Virus record (IMG/VR): IMGVR_UViG_3300042904_000255
Coordinates: 1-37,927 of that record
Length of the DNA stretch: 37,927 bases
Direction: 5' to 3' (one strand)
DNA from: a virus
Positions within the stretch are counted from its first letter, which is position 1. Each line of letters starts with the position of its first letter. The translations under genes were made by a program, and so were the position numbers. Shown here one piece after another: positions 17,586 to 30,797 of the stretch. The notes under the pieces are model-generated. The model was not told where the DNA came from. It saw nothing but the letters and a program-made list of their open reading frames with translations, and did no database searches.

Positions 17586-17924
17586 CTATCCTATGATTGC
17601 ATATCGAAATGTTCTGTCCGTTTGCGCGTTATTTGAATGTGTAATGGTAAAGGTAGAATTGGCAGGTGAGGTTGCACTCACATACATCGTGCCAGCCCCA
17701 CGTTCAGCCGAAGCATTAGCAGTCATTGGTTCATACAAAACAACAGATGTTTCACTAATTCGATTCGGTGCTTCTTGTACTGTAGTGGATGCTGCGTTTG
17801 CAATAAGTGTAAACGTTCCGTAATTATTGCTTTTACCCTGCATCAATCCATTAACAACAGGTTCCGTCCGCCTTAACCATTCAATCGGATCAGGCATGTG
17901 TTTTGGCATATTGTTATAACTCAT
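17586..17924 (-). CDS. Small virion protein, beta-rich, 112 aa
   Basis: After a short helical start (MPDPIEWLRRTEPVVNGLMQ), the product is beta-strands rich in Thr, Ser and Ala (FTLIANAASTTVQEAPNRIS, TFTITHSNNAQTDRTFRYAI), like a tail or head decoration domain. Its ATG overlaps the stop of the stabilisation-protein gene (ATGA), so the two are translated together. No specific family is recognised; an accessory tail or head-completion protein is likely. Confidence 0.55.
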   Translation of the reverse strand: MSYNNMPKHMPDPIEWLRRTEPVVNGLMQGKSNNYGTFTLIANAASTTVQEAPNRISETSVVLYEPMTANASAERGAGTMYVSATSPANSTFTITHSNNAQTDRTFRYAIIG

Positions 17925-19402
17925 CGGGTCCCTACCTTTGTCGCTTTTAACACTTCAATGCCTTGCACTTGGTCAAAACCACCACTGATATTGACTCTTA
18001 ATCGGTGATAGCGCGCATTTGATCTTATCGGGCAGTCGCCCGTTGAATTAGGTGAAAAAGTTGCGCCATAACTCACATCCGATGTTTGAACATTACGCGT
18101 ACCTGCTTGTACCGTAATGGTTGAGCTTGAGCCATTGACTAAAGGCCGGACTAAGGTAATAGTCGCGCGGTTCCCAGGAAATGCTTGAAATTCCGCAGTC
18201 TCAAGAGTTGCGGTCATCGCAGGACCCGTAAAATTGATTTGTTTGTGGTCTGAATTAAAACCACTTAAAATATAATTTTCCCCCGTCCACACACGTGAAT
18301 CTAAGGAAGTGGTCAAAACATCCAAGCTCCCGCTAACCGTATCAAGCGTATCTAATGTATAGCCTTCACTTAAGGATGTATAAAATAGCTCAATATCAAT
18401 ACCGTCAATAAACGTCCATCTGTTTTTGGAATTAGGTGCATAGTTATAACAAAGGATTTTATTCGCGCGACCCGAGGTATTGCCTGTGGCAGGATAAGCC
18501 CAATAAATCACTTGTTTATCAAAATCTGCTGTGCCGTATACACGTGCTAAATAGCCTAAATCAATTTCATCAAAAAATGTTTGGTCAACTTTGTTCGCAC
18601 CGATGGGGATTGAACGATTACCATCAAAAGCGTAAAAGCCATCAATTCCTAAGTAAAAAATAATATTCCCCGCTTTGACAACCGAATTGGGAGACATGGT
18701 ACCCTTGCCAGTTTCTACCTCAGAAAATCGCCAAACCAAGGGCGAACCTACATACTCCATTCGAACAATCGCACGCTCTTGAAATATGACACCATATTCA
18801 CCGCTAACTACTGCTCTTATCCAGCCATTTGACACATTTAAGTCTTGGTAATCTGCTTGTGTGGTGGCGGATACTGTCCAAGCCGTTGGGTCATCAAGAC
18901 CGCTCCATCTGACGCGATTAGGTACATTGCCATCAATGGAATCAAACGTATTTCCCACCACAATAAAATTACCGATAGTTGCAATATAACGCGCACGAGG
19001 CGCATTTACTGACAAATCCGAAAAATTGCTTGACGTATTAACGGTAAATGTTTGTATATTGTCATTGTAATTTGTTGCAATCAGTCGATTATTATGTCTT
19101 GTAAAAAACCAGTTTTCATCGGTGCCTGTCGTATAACCACCTACTTTTGAGACATCCGCGTAAGCAGCCGATGCCATACGATATAATTTATTTGCATCTG
19201 CCGTAAAATTTACGGTGTTCCCATCCGCATCCTTCGTACTAAAAGCACCAATGCAGCGCGCACCTAACGCATTAGAATAAACCGTTTGCGAAGGAAAGGA
19301 CTGATAGCTGTCGCCTGCTGGTATGACATTTTTTGCAATAGTTGAGCCTGGATTATTAAAATCAGGCAAATCAGGCAAGTATTCTCCAAATGGAATAATC
19401 AT
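17921..19402 (-). CDS. Packaged-DNA stabilisation protein (P22 gp10-like), 493 aa
   Basis: The start MIIPFGEYLPDLPDFNNPGS and the beta-propeller-like body (FTADANKLYRMASAAYADVS, FFTRHNNRLIATNYNDNIQT, GIDGFYAFDGNRSIPIG) match the phage stabilisation proteins that close the portal channel after packaging and connect to the tail. The length is near the usual 450-500 residues. Starts and stops overlap both neighbours (ATGA at 19399-19402 and at 17921-17924), typical of a stoichiometric head-completion set. It is expected in the virion neck. Confidence 0.75.
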   Translation of the reverse strand: MIIPFGEYLPDLPDFNNPGSTIAKNVIPAGDSYQSFPSQTVYSNALGARCIGAFSTKDADGNTVNFTADANKLYRMASAAYADVSKVGGYTTGTDENWFFTRHNNRLIATNYNDNIQTFTVNTSSNFSDLSVNAPRARYIATIGNFIVVGNTFDSIDGNVPNRVRWSGLDDPTAWTVSATTQADYQDLNVSNGWIRAVVSGEYGVIFQERAIVRMEYVGSPLVWRFSEVETGKGTMSPNSVVKAGNIIFYLGIDGFYAFDGNRSIPIGANKVDQTFFDEIDLGYLARVYGTADFDKQVIYWAYPATGNTSGRANKILCYNYAPNSKNRWTFIDGIDIELFYTSLSEGYTLDTLDTVSGSLDVLTTSLDSRVWTGENYILSGFNSDHKQINFTGPAMTATLETAEFQAFPGNRATITLVRPLVNGSSSTITVQAGTRNVQTSDVSYGATFSPNSTGDCPIRSNARYHRLRVNISGGFDQVQGIEVLKATKVGTR

Positions 19403-19634: not shown

Positions 19635-20249
19635 TTAAAACGAAGTGCTGGTGATAACACCTGTTAGCTTTTCGGTTTTAATACGTAAATTTTGTAAAGC
19701 ATCCGCCTCTTCCGCTTTTGCTATATTTGCTTGCTCTTGATCTTTTATGATGCGCGAATAAATCCACCAACGCGCACGCGCTTCAATTAAATCTTCCGCA
19801 TCGGTTGTAAAATCATTTGTATCACCATCAGCACTTAATTCCGCATATTTTTGCTGATAAGAAATAGTGATGGTGCGCACCGCATTTGGAATGGGATAAA
19901 AGTAAAATTTTTCTTGATAGTAAGCAAAATCGGATGGCTCACCTGTGACATCAGCACCAATCCGATCTTTGATATAGGTATAGCTTCTATCTGTTAAGGG
20001 ATATTCTTTTCCTGATAAAGTAATTTCAACATAATCAATTTCTGCAATATCGGATGGCGCACCATCGGCTGTGCCATAATTAGATTGATTTGCAATCGTG
20101 ACAAACGTGCCTACCTTTTCACTAAACCAAAATCGTTCGGACTCGTAATACTCAATTGCACGATTAATCGCTTTTGTGATTTGAGTCGATAAATCAGTGC
20201 GATCTAAATCATCCTCAATCCGTGATCTCATCTGTGATAATGTACTCAT
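19635..20249 (-). CDS. Head-tail adaptor (P22 gp4-like tail accessory factor), 204 aa
   Basis: The start MSTLSQMRSRIEDDLDRTDL followed by TKAINRAIEYYESERFWFSE is typical of the phage adaptor family: a helical ring protein that binds under the portal. A beta part (YVEITLSGKEYPLTDRSYTY) and a C-terminal helix follow; this helix would dock to the portal. About 200 residues is a usual size. The start overlaps the previous stop by 4 nt. It acts in neck assembly directly after packaging. Confidence 0.65.
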   Translation of the reverse strand: MSTLSQMRSRIEDDLDRTDLSTQITKAINRAIEYYESERFWFSEKVGTFVTIANQSNYGTADGAPSDIAEIDYVEITLSGKEYPLTDRSYTYIKDRIGADVTGEPSDFAYYQEKFYFYPIPNAVRTITISYQQKYAELSADGDTNDFTTDAEDLIEARARWWIYSRIIKDQEQANIAKAEEADALQNLRIKTEKLTGVITSTSF

Positions 20250-20437
20250 GCCTGACTCTTCCGTTTAGTTTTCAGGATTTTTTTACAAGTAGCGCAGAGA
20301 TTGAGATTACTGCTCGCTACATTTGAATCCGATACAGCCTTCGTGGAAACATGTTCTAAGAATGGCTGGCCAGCTACCGGTAGGTTCTGCTCTAAAGCCT
20401 TCGACTTCTCTGCATAAATCTGTCTCCGTCTCATCAT
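20246..20437 (-). CDS. Overlapping 63-aa frame with zinc-finger-like end
   Basis: This frame overlaps the last 131 nt of the cupin gene. Two signals support it as real: GGAGA about 7 nt before ATGATG, and ATGA overlap with the adaptor gene. The product starts MMRRRQIYAEKSKALEQNLP and ends with LCATCKKILKTKRK, a single C-x2-C pair with basic residues. The cupin C-terminus read in the other frame looks non-conserved (GFRAEPTGSW onward), so the 63-aa protein may be the selected one. Alternatively a frameshift has extended the cupin into an older gene. Confidence 0.4.
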   Translation of the reverse strand: MMRRRQIYAEKSKALEQNLPVAGQPFLEHVSTKAVSDSNVASSNLNLCATCKKILKTKRKSQA

Positions 20438-20786
20438 TCATATCTCCGTGGTCTTCCCTTATGATGTCATACGCATTTAACTCTACCCAATAGATTTCAA
20501 GCGCTTGAGTATCTTCAAGAACTTCGAAACGATGATAATCACGGGGTGTAACAATGCATTCTTGACCCGCACCCAGAATGGAGATGTCTTGCAGGATTTT
20601 TTTGCCGTAGTCTTTCCAGACCGTGATTTTGAGTTTTCCATAGATCACCAAAAATTTATTAAATTTAAACTGATGGTAATGCTTAGAGCAGTACCCGCCT
20701 TTTTTCGCTTTTAACAAATGCACTTCGACATTGTTTTTGTTAAACAAGGGCGATGTCTCACCCCATACTTTTCCTTGTACGATCAT
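20307..20786 (-). CDS. Cupin (sugar-epimerase/isomerase-like), 159 aa
   Basis: The product has a single cupin barrel: GGYCSKHYHQFKFNKFLVIY gives the first histidine cluster (H-Y-H with a later Lys) and VTPRDYHRFEVLEDTQALEI gives the second histidine. It resembles cupins related to mannose-6-phosphate isomerase and to sugar-nucleotide modification. The cupin part ends near residue 118; the last 40 residues are unusual and overlap another frame. It is coupled by ATGA to the glycosyltransferase, which supports a role in sugar metabolism of the same pathway. Confidence 0.6.
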   Translation of the reverse strand: MIVQGKVWGETSPLFNKNNVEVHLLKAKKGGYCSKHYHQFKFNKFLVIYGKLKITVWKDYGKKILQDISILGAGQECIVTPRDYHRFEVLEDTQALEIYWVELNAYDIIREDHGDMNDETETDLCREVEGFRAEPTGSWPAILRTCFHEGCIGFKCSEQ

Positions 20787-21457
20787 TTCTCACCTGCTAC
20801 AAATTTAGGAACGCGTTTACCATCTTTAATCGTTGCGTGAATTGAATTTCCCATTAAGACTTCCCAAGGAAGAGAAGAATTTGTTTTTTTGTGTTCCTCG
20901 TGCCACTCTTTGACATATTCGCTGGTGATTGTTTCAGGAAAGCAGGGAATGCCTTGGGTATAATGCACAAGCTTTGCATCGTTTAGGGGTTCGTCATATC
21001 CAACCAAGTGATTCCATTCGCGTGGAAGATCCCCGATCTCCTCCTCTTTAAGCCATGCAATATGATGCAGCTTTTCAGCGCGCTCAATATAGTCAGGTTT
21101 TAATATTGTATTTTTCTCACAGTTAAAAAGAATCGCACTCGCCCATTCAAATTTCTTTTCATTTTTTGAAACCATAGCTGCATATCTGTCATCCGCTAAC
21201 TCAAATAGACTCGCAATATCATCACGAACGAGCATATCAATATCTAAAAAAAGCGCCCACCCTTGGAAGTCACAAAGGTATGGCACTAAAAACCGAGAGA
21301 AAGTAAAGGGAGTAAGCCCCACCCTTTTTATCGGTAGCTGCTCAATAACAAGTGGGGTAATGGCAACTGGCTTGCTTGATCTTGAAATAATGGATTGCTG
21401 TAAAACATTAAACGAGACAGGTTGTCTTGCGTCATATCCAATAAAAATCCTAAGCAT
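20783..21457 (-). CDS. Glycosyltransferase, GT-A fold, 224 aa
   Basis: The product starts MLRIFIGYDARQPVSFNVLQ, as in nucleotide-sugar transferases of the GT8-like type, and has a D-x-D motif at 72-74 (ALFLDIDMLVRDD) for metal and nucleotide sugar. The C-terminal half contains W-N-H-L-V-G-Y and LVHYTQGIPCF, typical acceptor-side elements of this group. I choose the ATG at 21457: AGGA lies 8 nt upstream and the ATG overlaps the methyltransferase stop. It probably transfers sugars onto host surface polysaccharide or a virion protein. Confidence 0.7.
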   Translation of the reverse strand: MLRIFIGYDARQPVSFNVLQQSIISRSSKPVAITPLVIEQLPIKRVGLTPFTFSRFLVPYLCDFQGWALFLDIDMLVRDDIASLFELADDRYAAMVSKNEKKFEWASAILFNCEKNTILKPDYIERAEKLHHIAWLKEEEIGDLPREWNHLVGYDEPLNDAKLVHYTQGIPCFPETITSEYVKEWHEEHKKTNSSLPWEVLMGNSIHATIKDGKRVPKFVAGEK

Positions 21458-21974
21458 CCATCTTATCCTTTTTTGGTTCAACAAACACAATGACTTCATT
21501 ATTTTCTTCAGTAGATTTGAGGATTTCAAAATATTCTCGGAATTTATCGACCCACCATTTTGCAGGTTTTATGAGTAAATGAGCATTTCTACCATCCGCT
21601 AAAACTTTCTGAGCTTCTATTGTTGACGCTGTAAAATAACCCTTCTTCTTTGTTAGCTTTGCTAGATGTTCTAACACGTTATCAATGAATTCCGGCTCGA
21701 TGTGTTCTAACACATCGGTGCATACAACAATATCAGCAGGAGAAGGAGCCTCTTTATATTTTTCAATCGCGGGATCGTACTGCTTGATCGTAAAAGGGAG
21801 GTTACGAGCAAGCGTACTTTTACCACAGCCATAATCTAAAACATCGGTCGTACCTAGCGCCTTCGCTAACTCTAAAACCTTACCCATGTGTCGTAAACCA
21901 CTCATCCCGTAGGTGGGGTTCGTTTCATGTAACTGCTTATTTAAGCGGGTATACTCATCTGATATAAACGACAT
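21450..21974 (-). CDS. SAM-dependent methyltransferase, 174 aa
   Basis: Class I methyltransferase features are clear: motif I VLDYGCGKSTLAR (residues 45-57), an acidic residue after the next strand (YDPAI, 66-70), and DIVVCTDVLEHIEP (81-94) as motif IV. It lacks the catalytic motifs of DNA methylases. With two glycosyltransferases and a cupin on either side, a sugar or lipid methylation step is the best guess. AGGACGAG precedes the ATG, which lies inside the end of the TPR glycosyltransferase gene (34-nt overlap). Confidence 0.75.
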   Translation of the reverse strand: MSFISDEYTRLNKQLHETNPTYGMSGLRHMGKVLELAKALGTTDVLDYGCGKSTLARNLPFTIKQYDPAIEKYKEAPSPADIVVCTDVLEHIEPEFIDNVLEHLAKLTKKKGYFTASTIEAQKVLADGRNAHLLIKPAKWWVDKFREYFEILKSTEENNEVIVFVEPKKDKMDA

Positions 21975-23350
21975 AACTCGTCCTTTGCTTTTTCAATAAC
22001 GGTTTCCCAATCCCCAGCGCGCGCTTGCCAAATGTTTTTAACGCAACTGTACCAAGGCATATCTAAGCCATACGGCCCCATTTGCCATAGCGCATGTTTA
22101 GGAGTCAGTTGTAATGTGGGAACACCTAAAGCACCCGCTAGATGCACGACACTTTGAGGAACAGAGACAATCAAATCTAAATTGGTAACCAGTCCGGCTG
22201 TTTCATCATAATCGGCAATTGCATCTTTCCAATGATGGATTTTGATGCCCTGTTCTTTTTCAAATTTATCAATTTCTTTTTCACTTCCCTCTGTGTATTG
22301 AAGTGAAATAAATTCCGCATCTATTTCTTTTAAGAGAGGCAACCACCGGTTTAGCTTAATGGTACGCTCTTCCATATTGGTTTGTTTCGTTCCGCCTTTC
22401 CAGGAAATACCGATCTTTATCTTTTGGCTTAATTTATCTAAACGCGCTTTGTATTTTTCAATCAATGCGACATTTGCTTTTAGATAAGGCGTACCAGGAA
22501 AATCTTCCACTTTGTTACGATAGAATTTCCCTAATGAACCAATCGCAATCCTTGCATCAATTTTATAGACCGAGGGCCAACTAAGCGCGTTATCTTTTCG
22601 TGTCCCAAACACCGGTAGTGATGGAAATGATTCACGAAATATTTCATACAATCTGGGGTGTGCATCTAAAATCACATTACAATCTTTCATGATATCTGGA
22701 AGCATGGAGGCAAACATAATCTCGTCACCTATGCCCTGTTCCCCGTAAACCACCACCGTCTTCCCTTTATCACCATTCCATTTTGGCGTGCCTTCCTCGT
22801 GGTAATTTCTTTCTTGGCGATCAGATGTCCTAACGCCTGCATCATAATCACGCCAGCCTTGCTCATAATCACCTTTCTCAAGGTAGGCTAGTGCCCTGTT
22901 CCATTTTGCATGAGGATTCTTAGGATAAAGATTTAATGCTTTATCAGAATATTTAATGGCTTCATCAGGCGTGCCAGTAGCCACAAATATTCCGCCTAAA
23001 TTCATCCATCCGTCAGAATCTTTCGGATTTAACTCAACTGTTTTTCTAAAGGCGTGTTCGGCTTTTTCTAGCTGTCTATCCATTTTGTAGGCGTAGCCTA
23101 GGTTATTCCAGGCACAAAATAATTTTTCATTAAATTTAAGTGCTAATTCAAATATAGAAATGGCTAATGCGTTATAGCTTTTCTTTAAAAATAAGGAACC
23201 CAAATAAAACAAAATAACAGGCGAATTTCTATCAATGTTTAAGATAGCATTGAAAATATCTTCGGCCTGGTTGTAATCTTCTCTCGTACTTTTTTCGTTT
23301 TGTAATATTTCTAAGGCTTTATCGAGCTGTTTTTGTAGATCAATTTTCAT
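21941..23350 (-). CDS. TPR protein with C-terminal glycosyltransferase-9-like domain, 469 aa
   Basis: Residues about 10-175 contain at least three tetratricopeptide repeats (FCAWNNLGYAYKMDRQLEKA, SDGWMNLGGIFVATGTPDEA, PHAKWNRALAYLEKGDYEQG). The remainder has a GT-B glycosyltransferase look, with VVVYGEQGIGDEIMFASMLP and a late SVPQSVVHLAGALGVPTLQL loop as in heptosyltransferase-like GT9 enzymes. I start at the ATG at 23350 because the in-frame codons further upstream overlap a terminator hairpin. It is the first gene of the sugar cassette and could modify LPS or glycosylate a protein. Confidence 0.75.
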   Translation of the reverse strand: MKIDLQKQLDKALEILQNEKSTREDYNQAEDIFNAILNIDRNSPVILFYLGSLFLKKSYNALAISIFELALKFNEKLFCAWNNLGYAYKMDRQLEKAEHAFRKTVELNPKDSDGWMNLGGIFVATGTPDEAIKYSDKALNLYPKNPHAKWNRALAYLEKGDYEQGWRDYDAGVRTSDRQERNYHEEGTPKWNGDKGKTVVVYGEQGIGDEIMFASMLPDIMKDCNVILDAHPRLYEIFRESFPSLPVFGTRKDNALSWPSVYKIDARIAIGSLGKFYRNKVEDFPGTPYLKANVALIEKYKARLDKLSQKIKIGISWKGGTKQTNMEERTIKLNRWLPLLKEIDAEFISLQYTEGSEKEIDKFEKEQGIKIHHWKDAIADYDETAGLVTNLDLIVSVPQSVVHLAGALGVPTLQLTPKHALWQMGPYGLDMPWYSCVKNIWQARAGDWETVIEKAKDELCRLYQMSIPA

Positions 23351-23366
23351 CAAATTTACATCCCTG

Positions 23367-23389
23367 AAAAAAACCCCCAGCGATGGGGG
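23367..23389 (-). terminator. Intrinsic terminator between capsid genes and sugar cassette
   Basis: On the minus strand CCCCCA-TCGC-TGGGGG (23389-23374 region) is followed by seven T (23373-23367). It lies 25 nt downstream of the gene for the 138-aa capsid-associated protein and ends 16 nt before the ATG of the TPR gene. An AGGGA ribosome site follows almost directly. It should lower transcription from capsid to cassette and set stoichiometry unless antitermination carries polymerase through. Confidence 0.8.
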
Positions 23390-23413
23390 TTTTGTCTGTC
23401 CCATACAGTTTCT

Positions 23414-23830
23414 TTACTTATCCATCGTGTACATAACAGTTAAGTTAAGCTTGAAACTGGTTGTGGATGAAGCAAGCGTAGGCGTTGCTTTTAATGTTGC
23501 AAAATTTGCAACGGCATCATCCGACAAGCTGACGGTATAGGGTAGATTTGCGCCAACACTTGCGCGATTAACAACCCCTTGTGTTGCTTGCGATGCAAAT
23601 GCAGATAACGTCCCATCAATTCCAATATCCACTGGGCAAGTCGTTGCACCCGTTGTGTGGTGTTCGATAATATCCAAAATAGTGGCTTTGTTTGGGATTT
23701 TGCATAACAAAATGGTTTGTGCAGACGCTTCAAGGGCTGAACTTGCAACATATTGAACCGACCTTGTTATAGTGCCATTCACATTACTGCGTGGGCCTTG
23801 GGCGAACGTAGTCGCTGTTAAAGTTGCCAT
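23414..23830 (-). CDS. Capsid-associated beta-rich protein (possible decoration), 138 aa
   Basis: The product starts MATLTATTFAQGPRSNVNGT and is made of Ala/Thr-rich beta strands ending in TSFKLNLTVMYTMDK. It has no enzyme motif. It follows the major capsid gene by 16 nt with its own ribosome site and precedes the terminator, so it is probably expressed at a level like capsid. A head-decoration or stabilising protein is the likely role; no precise family was recognised. Confidence 0.6.
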   Translation of the reverse strand: MATLTATTFAQGPRSNVNGTITRSVQYVASSALEASAQTILLCKIPNKATILDIIEHHTTGATTCPVDIGIDGTLSAFASQATQGVVNRASVGANLPYTVSLSDDAVANFATLKATPTLASSTTSFKLNLTVMYTMDK

Positions 23831-23846
23831 AATGAATTACCTCCTA

Positions 23847-24893
23847 TTAATGAGCAGCAGCGTAAGATGCGATAACGATTGTGCCGAAGTCCAAGCTGTT
23901 AAACACAGCTTTCTTAGCACCCCAGATCAATCCTGCACTCACACCTAATTGATTGCCGTAGTCGAATAACTCTTCATGCCAAACCATTTTGTTGGGCGAA
24001 TTATCCTGACCAAATGCAATGACCCCTGCCTGCGCGCCCATAAAGATTGCGCGACGAACACCCACAGTCACTGAAGGCACACGCGTCGACTCATGAATGA
24101 TGACACCGTTATATTCGCCTAACGCACCCGTATAGATGGGAGATTTCTTAGAATCAGAGCCTGCCATCGCTGCCTTTTGGATGTCTAACCATTGCCCGCT
24201 ATTCGTATTCGTACGAAGATCGGTTACTTGATAAGGATGCAAGAACAATAAGTACTTATCTTCCCCATCAATTTTTAAGGGTCGAATCATAGGATCAGCC
24301 GTTTTTGCTCTTTCAACAGCCGTATCAATAAACGCTAAGGTGAACTTGTTGCTCGCAGAAGCCGATGCAACTTGTGCCTCATTCGCGGTACCATTGACAT
24401 AGATGATGTTATTAGCAGAAGGTGCAATAGTCGCATTATGACCTGTATAACGTGTATCAGTCTGTGCCGTATTGCCCGCTAATTGATTAAATAAAGCGGT
24501 ATCAATGCGGTCTGCAAACCAATCTTGTAACCCTTGGCGTGCTTCTTCACGCACCGAGAAAGGAACACGTTGCTCGCTCATTTTTCCATCTGAGCGTACA
24601 GCATGTCTTAACTGATTGATAACGAGATTGTCAGCATAGGTACTCAATGCTTCTTCGTTACCTTCCAGTGTATTATCACCCTCAATACCAGCACCGGTCA
24701 GCTGCATACGTAAACCGATGGTGATGCGATCACCTGGGCCTTTTGAAAGTTCATCTTTGATCTGGATAGCAGAACTTGAATCCTTACCCATAAACTTGTT
24801 TAGCCAAGTTTGTTTCAATGCTTCCTGAAACAGCTTACGTGACCAAATTTTTACGGCTAAAGGATGGTTCACGCCATATTGTGTAGTAGCCAT
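23847..24893 (-). CDS. Major capsid protein (N4-gp56 / DUF4043 family), 348 aa
   Basis: The start MATTQYGVNHPLAVKIWSRK, followed by LFQEALKQTWLNKFMGKDSS and a stretch GPGDRITIGLRMQLTGAGIE, is the signature of the N4-gp56-type major capsid family with an HK97-like fold. Further typical parts are VREEARQGLQDWFADRIDTA and the LLFLHPYQVTDLRT strand. Length is in the normal range (about 320-400). It forms the icosahedral shell around the scaffold encoded upstream. A long structured leader precedes it and a terminator follows the next gene. Confidence 0.85.
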   Translation of the reverse strand: MATTQYGVNHPLAVKIWSRKLFQEALKQTWLNKFMGKDSSSAIQIKDELSKGPGDRITIGLRMQLTGAGIEGDNTLEGNEEALSTYADNLVINQLRHAVRSDGKMSEQRVPFSVREEARQGLQDWFADRIDTALFNQLAGNTAQTDTRYTGHNATIAPSANNIIYVNGTANEAQVASASASNKFTLAFIDTAVERAKTADPMIRPLKIDGEDKYLLFLHPYQVTDLRTNTNSGQWLDIQKAAMAGSDSKKSPIYTGALGEYNGVIIHESTRVPSVTVGVRRAIFMGAQAGVIAFGQDNSPNKMVWHEELFDYGNQLGVSAGLIWGAKKAVFNSLDFGTIVIASYAAAH

Positions 24894-25558: not shown

Positions 25559-26452
25559 TTAGCCGAGACGCATGAGCTTATCCCAATCCACTTTTTTAAA
25601 CTCTTCATCGGGTAGCTCCGCAATCTCTTCTAATCTCATTGCAGCTTTACCCGATTTACCAGGTGTACTGCTTAATGATTTACTCGCTTGCACGCCTTTC
25701 TCAAGTTGGTTAAGCCGTTGTTCGTTTGATCGAGTTCCGCCACCAAAGCCGCGCATTTTTGCAATCTTATAAATACGCTCTGCGGGATTAACTCCATCTT
25801 GATAAGCTTTGGCTACAATAGCAGCTTCATCTTCATGAAGTAGATGCTTTGCTTGTTCGCCCGTATACCCCGCCTCTTGGTATTCCTGTAGCTTCGTACT
25901 CACTAAATGCTGATAAGCTTCTTTAAAATCAGGCTTGTCTTGGATAAACGCCTCAGCACTACGCTGATAGCGATTAATAAATTGAGATTGTTGCTGCTCC
26001 ATCTGCGCTTGATACTGTACGGCTTGTTGTTGCTGCGCTAGGAACCGCTCTAAGTTTTCTGTTTTCGCCTTGAGTGTTCCTAAAGGGTCTTCTTCGTATG
26101 TAGGCTGTTGGTACTGAGGTTGCTGCTGTCCATACTGCAAACGCTGCATCATTTGCTGGAAAGTTTCTTCCATCCTTTGATTTTTGCGCTGAATTTCTTG
26201 TACCTGCCTTTGAAGTTCTTTTCTGCGTTCTCTTTCTTCATGTAACGCACCATACGGCACTTTTTTATCTTGCTTTGGCTGAGAATCCTGGCTATCGTCT
26301 TCTTGAGAATCATTCTCATCTGAAACATCATTTTCAGATTTTTCTTCAGTTATTTCTGCTTCTTCTGCATCTCCACCTGTTTCAAAAAACTTATCAACTG
26401 ACTCATCACTTAACTCTGCGGTAACGTCCGCATTTGACGTTTGTTCTGCCAT
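25559..26452 (-). CDS. Scaffolding protein, 297 aa
   Basis: Scaffold properties are plain: very acidic N-terminus (residues 10-60, with DVSDENDSQEDDSQDSQPKQ), then long Gln-rich coiled coil (residues 70-165), a helical C-terminal region and a basic-acidic tail ending DWDKLMRLG. The position between portal and capsid is standard for podoviruses. GGAG lies 7 nt before the ATG. It would drive procapsid assembly and leave before or during packaging. No protease motif is seen. Confidence 0.75.
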   Translation of the reverse strand: MAEQTSNADVTAELSDESVDKFFETGGDAEEAEITEEKSENDVSDENDSQEDDSQDSQPKQDKKVPYGALHEERERRKELQRQVQEIQRKNQRMEETFQQMMQRLQYGQQQPQYQQPTYEEDPLGTLKAKTENLERFLAQQQQAVQYQAQMEQQQSQFINRYQRSAEAFIQDKPDFKEAYQHLVSTKLQEYQEAGYTGEQAKHLLHEDEAAIVAKAYQDGVNPAERIYKIAKMRGFGGGTRSNEQRLNQLEKGVQASKSLSSTPGKSGKAAMRLEEIAELPDEEFKKVDWDKLMRLG

Positions 26453-26497: not shown

Positions 26498-26668
26498 TCA
26501 CCATCTATAATAATCATCCTGTATATTTGTCGGATCATTTTCATCATTTAACTTATTTGCTTTACTGATCAATTGCAATAAACCCACAATTTCACTGCCA
26601 TAGACATGCGATAAATAAACCAGTCCACAACAACAAGCAGTAATGATACATAAGAGAATGATTACCAT
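26498..26668 (-). CDS. Small membrane protein overlapping the portal stop, 56 aa
   Basis: The product starts MVIILLCIITACCCGLVYLS, a single hydrophobic N-terminal helix with a triple cysteine, then an amphipathic stretch and an acidic tail ending DDYYRW. GGAGG lies 6 nt before the ATG, and the ATG overlaps the portal stop by 7 nt, so it is coupled to portal translation. The cysteines after the hydrophobic segment hint at a lipoprotein signal, but the lipobox is not well formed. It might be an accessory lysis or envelope protein. Confidence 0.5.
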   Translation of the reverse strand: MVIILLCIITACCCGLVYLSHVYGSEIVGLLQLISKANKLNDENDPTNIQDDYYRW

Positions 26669-28791
26669 TGCATACCTCCAAAGGGTTGGTTAGCTTTTAG
26701 CTGTGCGTTCAATTGCGCTTCAAGTTCTTTTCGGCGCATGTTTAATTGCATCTCTAAATCCTTCCGTGCCTGTTCCTTCATCATCATCTCGTACTTCATT
26801 TGATGCTCAGCCGTGGCAATCCCCAACTTTTGTTGCGCCTGCGCTGCTTCATCCTGGCCTATCGCATGGGCTTGTTCCGATTTAGCATAATTAAGCGTAA
26901 CATCTGATTGTGTCTTTTGAACATCCGCTTGCTTTTGCTGGACTTCCAACTGCATCAACATATTTTTGATTTGATCGAGCTGGTTCTTCATCGGATCATT
27001 CTGATTACTAATAATAAGCTTCTTCCATTTCTGTATCAGGTCTTCGGGGAGCGGTGCGTAATCCAGTATTTCGGGTGGAATAGGAATACCAGACGACATT
27101 GCCATCGGTAAAAATTGGCTCAATGCTCCAAATGTTCTCTCTTTCACATTGGGAGATGTGGGCGCATCATCTACAATAATGTCATATTCAAATGCCATAG
27201 CATCCTTTAAAAGCGGCACGTACTGCGCACCTTCTTGACCGACTACCCGAATTAATCTGCCATCCGACATATATTCACGGATGTAATAGGCAAGCACTCT
27301 ACCCTGTACTTTGCGATAACGTCTAAGTGAGTCAAAGAATGTAGCAAGTATGGTGATGCCTGCCTGCTTACGCGTTTGCTCAAGCACATTAGGTTGATCG
27401 CGATCTGCAAGGCCAATGAGTTCAAGATTAACCCCAGGCACATCATTGATACTTTGCACTGCATATTGCAGTAAGCGATCCACCCCTTCTGGATAACGTG
27501 GCATTTCTCGAGGCATAATCTTGCTTTGGGATAACGCGCCATCGTTCACCATGATTAAGGCATCAGGCTTTGCCCAATCATCTTCTGCTTTACGAGGATT
27601 ACGAAGGGCTCCCACTTCCACAAATGCCCCGCCTTTTGCATTGGTATTGATAATATGTTGTATCTGGCTTAACCATTTATTCGCCCAGCGTTGCGGGTCT
27701 TTCATTAAAGAGACTAAACCAAACCAGTAGTTGCGATTACGATCACGCAACCCTGTAATAGGCTGAAAGGTGAAGTGACTACAGCCAATCTCAATCTTAT
27801 CAAGAAGAACTTTCCCCATTAAAAAGCATTGATAATAAGTGCGCTTCGGGAATTTCACATACTTTAATTTCTGTGACTCAATAACAGGCTGCATCTTTTC
27901 GAAACGATCTTCCGGTACTTCAACCATGTTCCCATCAGGGGTCAGTACTTTATACATCGTGGTTCGTTCGTAATACTGGTACTGAACGACCGATACCGTA
28001 TTGGCTTTACTTAGACGCTCCCCTTCATCGCTTTCATATTTCCACGCCTCATCCGCTTCATGAACAGACGAATCGTAATCATTCCAAAATACACCAGGCG
28101 TCACTTCATCCTCATAGTCAGGCCACATTTCTCTAAATTGTTTCTTCGTCACTTCCTTAACGCGCGCAATCCATCGAGCATCAATAAAGTTTCGTTTCTT
28201 AGCGGACGGGTCTACCACTAAATCAAAGGGGTCAACACGCTCAATAATTGTTTTTCCTTCTGGGTTTTCTTCGTAATCAATGCGTGTTTCAGTGCAACCC
28301 ATCCCGCAGATAAGCGCGTCTTGAAAGGCTTCGGATTCTTCATCTTCCGCATCACACTGATCACGCACCCATTTACCCGCATGTGTTAATAACTCAGCCA
28401 TTTTTGGAATGGAGGGCTGCGGTGCGGCGGGTGGCTTGTTCGGGTCTTGCTGTGTATCTTCGGAGGGTTGCTGTTGACGAGGAAAGTATCTCACTTCCTG
28501 CCTATTCTGCACTTCTAAACCACACACCGCGTTAATCGTTCGTGCCACACGATTAAATGTCACAACCGGTCTATTCTCTTCCCTTAATTTAGCGGCATCT
28601 TCTTCATTCCATTGAATGCCTGCAAAGAAATCATAATCTTCGCGTGCGCTCATGCGCCATTCCGCGATATGGCATCTTCCTTCGCTTAAGTTCTTTGAAA
28701 TCTCTGTGATAAGCTCATCATTATCAAGCTGCCCAGGCAGAACCGCTTCGTTTTCGTCCGCGTCTGTACCTGTCATTGGGTTCATCGTCAT
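26662..28791 (-). CDS. Portal protein (P22-like), 709 aa
   Basis: The body matches P22-type portals: YDFFAGIQWNEEDAAKLREE, RPVVTFNRVARTINAVCGLE, RVDPFDLVVDPSAKKRNFID and a C-terminal Gln-rich coiled coil of the barrel (about 600-700). Length around 700 is typical for this family. I put the start at 28791 (MTMNPMTG); frame further upstream lies inside terL and has no signal. It still overlaps terL by 68 nt. The portal is the dodecameric ring through which DNA is packed and ejected. Confidence 0.85.
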   Translation of the reverse strand: MTMNPMTGTDADENEAVLPGQLDNDELITEISKNLSEGRCHIAEWRMSAREDYDFFAGIQWNEEDAAKLREENRPVVTFNRVARTINAVCGLEVQNRQEVRYFPRQQQPSEDTQQDPNKPPAAPQPSIPKMAELLTHAGKWVRDQCDAEDEESEAFQDALICGMGCTETRIDYEENPEGKTIIERVDPFDLVVDPSAKKRNFIDARWIARVKEVTKKQFREMWPDYEDEVTPGVFWNDYDSSVHEADEAWKYESDEGERLSKANTVSVVQYQYYERTTMYKVLTPDGNMVEVPEDRFEKMQPVIESQKLKYVKFPKRTYYQCFLMGKVLLDKIEIGCSHFTFQPITGLRDRNRNYWFGLVSLMKDPQRWANKWLSQIQHIINTNAKGGAFVEVGALRNPRKAEDDWAKPDALIMVNDGALSQSKIMPREMPRYPEGVDRLLQYAVQSINDVPGVNLELIGLADRDQPNVLEQTRKQAGITILATFFDSLRRYRKVQGRVLAYYIREYMSDGRLIRVVGQEGAQYVPLLKDAMAFEYDIIVDDAPTSPNVKERTFGALSQFLPMAMSSGIPIPPEILDYAPLPEDLIQKWKKLIISNQNDPMKNQLDQIKNMLMQLEVQQKQADVQKTQSDVTLNYAKSEQAHAIGQDEAAQAQQKLGIATAEHQMKYEMMMKEQARKDLEMQLNMRRKELEAQLNAQLKANQPFGGMQW

Positions 28792-30277
28792 AAATTGTTC
28801 TCGGCCATAGGGCGTGAAGATCAGGGTCAAGGATTCGTGCCATGCAATCCAGCATGTCATCGTGTACAGCCACAGGAAACGCTAGGAACTCCTCGTTAAT
28901 AAAACCGTCAACAAGGTCATGCGTTCTACCGTCATACGTAGTTTTAAAAATGCTATCTGGGAAATACCATCTGCCTTGAGCAAGAGTCGGGATTAAATTT
29001 TTAATACGATCAATTTTTGCAAGCTTCCCGCCCGCTTCGAGTAGATTAAAATGATAATTTTTTCTGTTCATCTGATCGCGAATATGCTCGATATCCGCTT
29101 GCATACCGTATTTTTCATACCCTACAGCCAGTGGTTTCCACTTTCGATGTAAATTAAAAAGACAATTAACACGCTCCAGTAAATTAAGTCGATCTCTGAC
29201 CATATCCAGCACATAGTAATTATTGTCCTCGCCTAAACCGATAACAAACATTGCCGTGTAATCGCTCGTCTTTTTCTTCTCATTCGCAGGATCTACCAAT
29301 AAGTACTTATTCATCCCTGTGCCGTCTGTCCCCCCGTGCCACTTGATCCATTCACGTTTAAGTGATTGGGTTTCATCCGCCAATGGGTTTTGAAGAATCT
29401 GGGTGCTAAAAGTATAAGGCCCCATGTTGCGCCGTTTTTCCGCTAATTCTTCTTTAGTCTTAAAGACTGGATTCCCTTCCATCGTGCCATCGTGAGTACC
29501 CGCATAGATGCGAGGAATAGCCGCACCTCGTTTAATAATCTCTCGATACGCATCATTAAAGTGGTAGCGTGTACCGATATAACGCGCGACTGATCCCTTT
29601 GAACCTAAGTTCGTGGACATCTCCCACGACTCCAGGGTCTTTTTCATCATATCGGGTGTGTACACCGAGGCTTGGGTCACAACGTCATCGTATATCAGTA
29701 CGTTAAAATGCTTAGATGTCGGTTGACCTTCTACCAAGCCGTAGGCTTCCACGGTGCTTTCTTTAGGATTGTTTTTACGCTTTACAACCAGTCCATCGTC
29801 CTCAGACCATTTGGGTGCCTCTTTTTGCGGAGACTCCCATAACACATCTGGGAACATTGATTTAAGAAGTCCATTTCCTTCCATCTCCCTTTTAATCTGC
29901 CGCAAGAACCCCTTTGCGATAGGTCTTGTGTGACTAAATATGCCGAAAGTCGGCTCTAACCCTTCCCACCTGGGCAGTGGATCATCACCATGACTTGCTA
30001 AAATATCCTGTATAGTTTTGGCATAGGTGATAATCGTTGACTTGTAATGATCGCGCGCCCATAAGTCCAAGTACCCATCAGGATTCATCTGTACTTCTTT
30101 ACACCTTGCAAGGAGCCAAGGATGCTCTACATCGCGTCTGCCAAAAGCCCACCACAATAAAAAATAGAGATCAGTCCGACATAGATAGCGAACGATCTTT
30201 ATCTTTTCAGTTTCATTGCAATGCGAGAGATTGATGACGAGCGTGTGATATTCACTTATTGTGCTTGGTTGGATCAT
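28724..30277 (-). CDS. terL: Terminase large subunit, 517 aa
   Basis: The ATPase half has an unusual Walker A, ARDHYKST (74-81), as in T7-like and related terminases, and Walker B FNVLIYDD (191-198). The nuclease half has LLVDPANEKKKTSDYTAM with D329 and a late HDDMLDC with D473/D474 as metal-binding acids. Length fits the family. It overlaps the portal and the KOW-like gene at both ends. It pumps DNA into the procapsid and cuts it; the packaging type (headful or cos) cannot be read from the sequence. Confidence 0.9.
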   Translation of the reverse strand: MIQPSTISEYHTLVINLSHCNETEKIKIVRYLCRTDLYFLLWWAFGRRDVEHPWLLARCKEVQMNPDGYLDLWARDHYKSTIITYAKTIQDILASHGDDPLPRWEGLEPTFGIFSHTRPIAKGFLRQIKREMEGNGLLKSMFPDVLWESPQKEAPKWSEDDGLVVKRKNNPKESTVEAYGLVEGQPTSKHFNVLIYDDVVTQASVYTPDMMKKTLESWEMSTNLGSKGSVARYIGTRYHFNDAYREIIKRGAAIPRIYAGTHDGTMEGNPVFKTKEELAEKRRNMGPYTFSTQILQNPLADETQSLKREWIKWHGGTDGTGMNKYLLVDPANEKKKTSDYTAMFVIGLGEDNNYYVLDMVRDRLNLLERVNCLFNLHRKWKPLAVGYEKYGMQADIEHIRDQMNRKNYHFNLLEAGGKLAKIDRIKNLIPTLAQGRWYFPDSIFKTTYDGRTHDLVDGFINEEFLAFPVAVHDDMLDCMARILDPDLHALWPRTIYDDEPNDRYRRGRKRSGSAWAA

Positions 30278-30726: not shown

Positions 30727-30797
30727 AGGCTTGAGATGGACTCGAACCATCATGAACGGTGTTGCAGACCGCCGCCTATCCTTTCGGCCATCAAGCC
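30727..30797 (-). tRNA. tRNA-Cys (GCA)
   Basis: On the minus strand a full 71-nt cloverleaf is present: acceptor GGCTTGA/TCAAGCC (7 bp), D stem GCC/GGC, anticodon stem GCGGT/ACCGT with loop CTGCAAC (anticodon GCA at 30765-30763), variable TCAT, and T arm GATGG-TTCGAGT-CCATC. The discriminator is U73, the identity base of tRNA-Cys. The CCA end is not encoded. It lies between terS and the KOW-like gene inside the late operon, so it must be cut out of a messenger transcript. Confidence 0.93.

Follow-up and report, generated by a model that had tools for sequence, protein, structure and literature searches.

A candidate glycosylation cassette behind the capsid genes of tailed phages, with relatives beside bacterial type IV pilin genes

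In Caulobacter crescentus, glycosylation of flagellin in the cytosol depends on FlmG: its TPR domain binds the flagellin, and the reaction requires its GT-B domain (PMC7591256). The protein heptosyltransferase TibC uses Asp110 as its catalytic base (PMC4358343). Among phages, glycosyltransferases encoded by mycobacteriophages Che8 and Corndog are reported to act on proteins of the capsid and the tail (Freeman et al. 2023, as cited in PMC12363180 and PMC11256854), so that virion glycosylation as such is already known; in a limited literature search, glycosylated phage virions were documented only for some mycobacteriophages. On the side of possible substrates, a virion-associated protein of phage GP4 occupies the outer capsid surface as 180 trimers, or 540 copies (PMC9698820).

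The window analysed here is the whole of a 37.9-kb virus record from IMG/VR. It carries a long minus-strand run that leads from the terminase through the portal, scaffold-like, capsid and cement genes to a cassette of four genes, and then through the adaptor and further structural genes to the endolysin. A tRNA-Cys gene (30727-30797, minus strand) lies just upstream of the terminase block. The features are, in the order of transcription of this run, the integrase being placed last:

28724-30277, minus strand: terminase
26662-28860, minus strand: portal
25559-26452, minus strand: scaffold-like gene
23847-24893, minus strand: major capsid protein of N4gp56 type (PF13252, Pfam E 1.4e-80; PHROG 334 major head protein, E 2.8e-91)
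23414-23830, minus strand: capsid cement (decoration) protein of 138 aa, so identified by profile and fold matches to solved cements
23367-23392, minus strand: intrinsic terminator in the gap between cement gene and cassette, with hairpin AAACCCCC-ATCGCT-GGGGGTTTTTTT
21941-23350, minus strand: TPR-GT-B glycosyltransferase (TPR-GT), with TPR repeats in residues 1-175 and a GT9/TibC-like domain at about 190-465
21450-21974, minus strand: class I SAM methyltransferase (Methyltransf_23, E 4e-10, above cut-off; PHROG 24759 methyltransferase, E 1e-26)
20783-21457, minus strand: GT8-like GT-A glycosyltransferase with a DxD motif (Glyco_transf_8 at cut-off)
20307-20786, minus strand: small cupin-like protein (PF14667 and the WbuC family, both below cut-off)
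19635-20249, minus strand: SU10-type head-tail adaptor (PF24175, E 5e-18), the downstream border of the slot that holds the cassette
17921-19402, minus strand: virion structural protein
11406-12062, minus strand: endolysin
7576-8271, strand opposite to the structural run: integrase

The four overlapping genes that the initial annotation had placed between a capsid-associated gene and the adaptor were borne out: the TPR-GT and methyltransferase genes overlap by 34 bp, the methyltransferase and GT8-like genes by 8 bp and the GT8-like and cupin genes by 4 bp (ATGA), while the gap between the cupin stop and the ATG of the adaptor measures 57 bp. The tight coupling claimed for them holds among the four genes but does not extend to the cement gene, since the 26-bp terminator intervenes. 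The block is kept in dozens of relatives, so its arrangement is not due to chance. For the TPR-GT the most likely start is 23350; its open frame extends to 23404, but the N-terminal extension gained in this way (23350-23404) is encoded by the terminator and is spurious. The GT8-like enzyme is likely to start at the ATG at 21457. The presence of an integrase makes a temperate life style plausible.

In Pfam searches the TPR repeats of the TPR-GT scored far above cut-off, while GT9 (PF01075) reached 13.8 bits against a cut-off of 22; we therefore call the enzyme GT9-like and do not assign it to GT9. Its predicted model (pLDDT 93.8) consists of TPR helices over residues 1-175 followed by a GT-B domain, whose closest folds, over 236-258 residues, are those of the GT9 enzymes 3tov (Z 18.2), WaaF (1psw, Z 17.4) and WaaC (Z 16.9), with TibC at Z 15.8. 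When the whole chain was submitted to Foldseek, SPINDLY and OGT ranked first. The glycine and the aspartate (Asp209) of a GxGDE motif are invariant in 146 viral sequences, and from its place in the motif Asp209 is probably the counterpart of the GT9 catalytic base. The GT8-like enzyme scored 24.2 bits for PF01501 (cut-off 24.3), and its DxD motif was present in all 109 viral and all 25 bacterial sequences; the DYGCGK motif of the methyltransferase is likewise conserved. The cupin-like gene is an optional accessory, found elsewhere only at loci L085 and L087. Glycosylation of DNA was considered and set aside, no base-modification genes being seen near the cassette.

The GT9 enzymes WaaC and WaaF build the LPS core. 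That they are the closest folds of the TPR-GT, that WbuC of O-antigen loci is a weak match of the cupin and that a phage integrase is present could all be taken to mean that the cassette acts on the host surface, at the LPS core or O-antigen, and serves superinfection exclusion or lysogenic conversion. Its TPR fusion is instead of the kind found in protein glycosyltransferases. None of the four genes matched a membrane flippase or glycosyltransferase family of GtrA, GtrB or GtrC type in Pfam, PHROGs or NCBIfam, and the location inside the virion structural block, here and in relatives, is unlike that of Gtr-type O-antigen conversion cassettes.

In a single-sequence search, the 138-aa gene upstream of the cassette gave no match in Pfam or PHROGs. 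A profile of 29 relatives, however, matched 8h89_J, the virion-associated protein of GP4 (E 3.6e-11), and 7eel_H, the cement protein of Pam1 (E 3.8e-7), and the predicted model (pLDDT 85) resembled GP4 (Z 15.5), Pam1 (13.1) and the KHP30 (10.6) and KHP40 (10.2) cements, the next best match reaching 8.9. By profile and modelled fold we thus identify the product of 23414-23830 as a capsid cement protein of the GP4/Pam1/KHP type. Two cement subfamilies, remotely related to each other (hhalign probability 90%), were found among the capsid relatives.

We then examined gene order around 80 capsid relatives, together with MW202512 and the window. A TPR-GT was present in 34 of the 67 loci that were readable to the adaptor or the cassette. 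All 34 cassettes stood with one cement subfamily, of which 6 further loci had none; the other subfamily was never accompanied by a cassette (0/24). This association comes down to only about 5 changes of cement type and 7 of the cassette on the capsid tree; co-occurrence was therefore rejected as phylogenetically independent proof, the independent pairs being too few. A Fisher p of about 1e-11 for cement and cassette was obtained before locus L055 was reset to cassette-positive and is not used as a probability. A partial Mantel analysis of co-divergence was uninformative as to the acceptor, giving similar values for all cassette genes and the adaptor. The Ser+Thr content of the cement was 23% in cassette phages against 20% in others, a difference confounded by kinship.

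A second survey started from the TPR-GT and was blind to the capsid. Among the matches listed, which are best hits, 135 of 136 distinct viral TPR-GTs with upstream sequence lay behind capsid or capsid-adjacent genes: 71 behind an N4gp56 capsid gene and cement, 3 behind a cement gene at a contig edge, 54 behind a capsid gene of a second kind, SU10_MCP (PF17236), and 7 behind the small companion gene of that second kind. The remaining one, L111 (3524-5020), is a clear exception in this ranked sample: its TPR-GT lies upstream of the terminase, with capsid and cement elsewhere on the contig. Since ranked lists consist of best hits, an unranked sample was drawn from IMG/VR by a DNA motif, and here, of 65 TPR-GTs whose upstream sequence was available, 63 were in the head block (20 N4gp56, 38 SU10_MCP, 5 behind the companion gene) and 2 elsewhere. 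The position between capsid and adaptor, which had been described as unusual, is thus the normal one in relatives across two capsid lineages. The full cassette was absent from all cultured phages among 50,697 records; Rhizobium phage RHph_X2_30 and MW202713 gave partial TPR-GT matches in other contexts and were not counted as carrying the cassette.

The slot itself might be a mere hotspot for accessory genes, with a cassette of no virion-related function, because unrelated genes do occupy it in some relatives. At L026, L028 and L029 the place of the cassette, behind the cement subfamily with which it is otherwise found, is taken by a Gly-rich fibre-like gene of 430 aa (PF21722), and in an alignment of relatives' slots (A8, L055-L146) we found radical SAM/SPASM genes (7/61), extra methyltransferases, HNH endonucleases and one gene of the dehydratase/epimerase family. 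The radical SAM/SPASM, methyltransferase and dehydratase/epimerase genes are in part compatible with glycan tailoring. A mere hotspot would explain neither why nearly all sampled viral TPR-GTs are found there in two lineages nor why the same trio recurs, methyltransferase and GT8 both being present in 46 of 57 N4gp56 loci, and we consider it extremely unlikely.

The two lineages also bear on which shell protein is the acceptor. Loci of the SU10_MCP lineage have a capsid gene and then a 120-aa companion gene, unmatched in Pfam, ahead of the TPR-GT, and a cement of the window's family was not found at them; the cement therefore is not a universal acceptor. This fits the alternative that the enzymes modify another virion protein, such as the major capsid protein, the adaptor or a tail protein, and that adjacency to the cement gene reflects the slot only. 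In the window's own lineage, though, the gene next after the cement is almost always the TPR-GT, and it goes with a single cement subfamily. We regard another acceptor as unlikely in this virus and retain the cement as the favoured one.

The hairpin and T tract between the cement stop and the TPR-GT ATG were spotted by eye and then tested by script, a terminator scan having missed them because the stem took in the T tract. Terminator-like hairpins, mostly of differing sequence, were present in 52 of 68 homologous gaps between cement and cassette, against 0.4 expected from shuffles; inside the cassette block, no other class of gap had more than one. In the SU10_MCP lineage, terminators stood directly after the capsid gene (26/41, 0 expected) and never between companion gene and TPR-GT (0/56). 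Within 160 nt after the cement gene, they were found in 53 of 73 loci with the cassette and 11 of 37 without it; as they also occur without it, they seem to be partly a general means of over-expressing shell proteins. A promoter belonging to the cassette was rejected, since promoter-like sites showed no excess (11 versus 16.2 in shuffles) and only 16 bp are available between terminator and TPR-GT ATG. The terminator nevertheless suggests read-through as the way in which the cassette is expressed, at a lower level than the capsid. The initial annotation had the cassette expressed late, together with the virion genes: late timing is presumed, and the conserved terminator argues against simple co-expression with the capsid.

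A search with the TPR-GT profile also yielded 79 bacterial loci. In 16 of them a pilin-type gene lay within 3 kb of the TPR-GT, 14 being type IV pilin and 2 pseudopilin-like; the pilin motif was absent near 179 viral TPR-GT loci and from 342 kb of bacterial loci distant from TPR-GTs. TPR-GT clusters directly adjoin type IV pilin genes at L231, L233-L238, L241, L242, L244, L245, L250, L251 and L262. Pilin-linked loci often had several TPR-GTs and a GT8-like partner (Methylococcus, Betaproteobacteria), and the pilin-adjacent clusters possibly form a cytosolic pilin glycosylation system. One contig of the bacterial set, L232 from a Thiotrichaceae MAG, proved to be a phage similar in kind to the window. 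At L230 (Reyranella) and L285 (Vineibacter terrae), chromosomal capsid, cement, cassette and adaptor genes stand beside a gene for a MATE-type transporter; a portal gene is present as well, and no terminase similar to that of the window was found; these are possibly decayed or domesticated prophages. That the bacterial relatives adjoin pilins, and that location is tied to capsid genes in two lineages, makes action on LPS or O-antigen very unlikely in our judgement. Between the virion and host-surface roles left open by the initial annotation, architecture, cement neighbour, head location and pilin-linked homologues thus favour virion proteins.

Taken together, we think it likely that the cassette is an FlmG-like glycosylation module for the head shell, with the cement as main acceptor in this virus. 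Modification of the shell is favoured by the identity of the cement, by the TPR and GT-B architecture with its GT9/TibC fold and OGT/SPINDLY whole-chain matches, and by the near-invariable location; the invariant residues of catalytic type favour a glycosylation module and the pilin-linked homologues a protein substrate. The cement as acceptor is favoured by its one-subfamily association and supported by its kinship-confounded Ser+Thr content, and has against it the 6 loci with the same subfamily but no cassette; the phylogenetic dependence of the association also counts against this reading. What the analysis shows is the identity and conserved order of the genes, their predicted folds, the conserved residues of catalytic type, the terminator and the pilin linkage of the bacterial relatives; that glycosylation takes place, on which protein, with which sugars, in what sequence and to what benefit, we infer. 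The TPR domain would bind the shell protein, here the cement, in the cytosol before or during assembly, and the GT9-like domain would transfer a first sugar, probably O-linked to Ser/Thr and possibly from a heptose-like donor. The GT8-like enzyme would then extend the glycan by another sugar; capping or tailoring it would fall to the methyltransferase, together with optional genes such as the cupin. The terminator, which fits a stoichiometry of enzyme and substrate, would hold the enzymes to catalytic amounts during the mass production of capsid and cement. A broader proposal, for and against which we find the case evenly balanced, is that a widespread and previously unrecognised cytosolic O-glycosylation module, made up of TPR-GT, GT8-like enzyme and methyltransferase, is common to bacteria, where it stands beside type IV pilins, and to tailed phages, where it stands behind the capsid gene and has the head shell of two capsid lineages as its substrate, an upstream terminator setting the amounts of enzyme and substrate.

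The enzyme type, placement and breadth of the cassette look new: in a limited literature search we did not find described the TPR-GT9-like type, the fixed post-capsid place, the terminator or the pilin-linked counterparts. If the proposal is true, with a dedicated set of enzymes fixed behind capsid genes in many uncultured viral contigs, many environmental virions are sugar-coated and such heads may be common and not exotic. This would bear on how virions adsorb, how stable they are and how the immune system recognises them, and on the sharing of one modification system by tailed phages and pili. The proposal points to testable protein pairs, cement with TPR-GT and pilin with TPR-GT, and to a marker for surveys, the GEQGxGDE motif downstream of capsid genes.

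Among phages, a close arrangement is that of Podoviridae sp. ctDrO704 (MW202512, a spring virome assembly), which has capsid, cement, TPR-GT, methyltransferase, GT8-like and adaptor genes in identical order but has its TPR-GT and methyltransferase genes parted by an additional endonuclease gene, lacks the cupin and is annotated without functional interpretation. The mycobacteriophages differ in host and enzyme families, and in the F1 phage Maravista, as far as the cited sources describe it, the glycosyltransferase genes lie towards the genome's 3' end and not behind the capsid gene. OGT and SPINDLY (GT41) share TPR repeats and a GT-B domain acting on proteins and gave the best whole-chain matches, but VIA-align Z scores place the catalytic domain studied here nearer GT9 than GT41. 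TibC and the other BAHT autotransporter heptosyltransferases (PMC4358343) share the GT9-like GT-B fold, apparently the catalytic aspartate of the corresponding motif, and a protein substrate; TibC, however, has no TPR repeats, forms a dodecamer with bound iron and modifies an autotransporter. The best functional analogue, by domain layout, would be FlmG, which like the TPR-GT has an N-terminal TPR and a C-terminal GT-B domain and is soluble and cytosolic; its substrate is flagellin and its sugar pseudaminic acid, whereas the enzyme described here is phage-borne and encoded beside a cement protein, but the substrate proposed for it is likewise a self-assembling protein of a surface.
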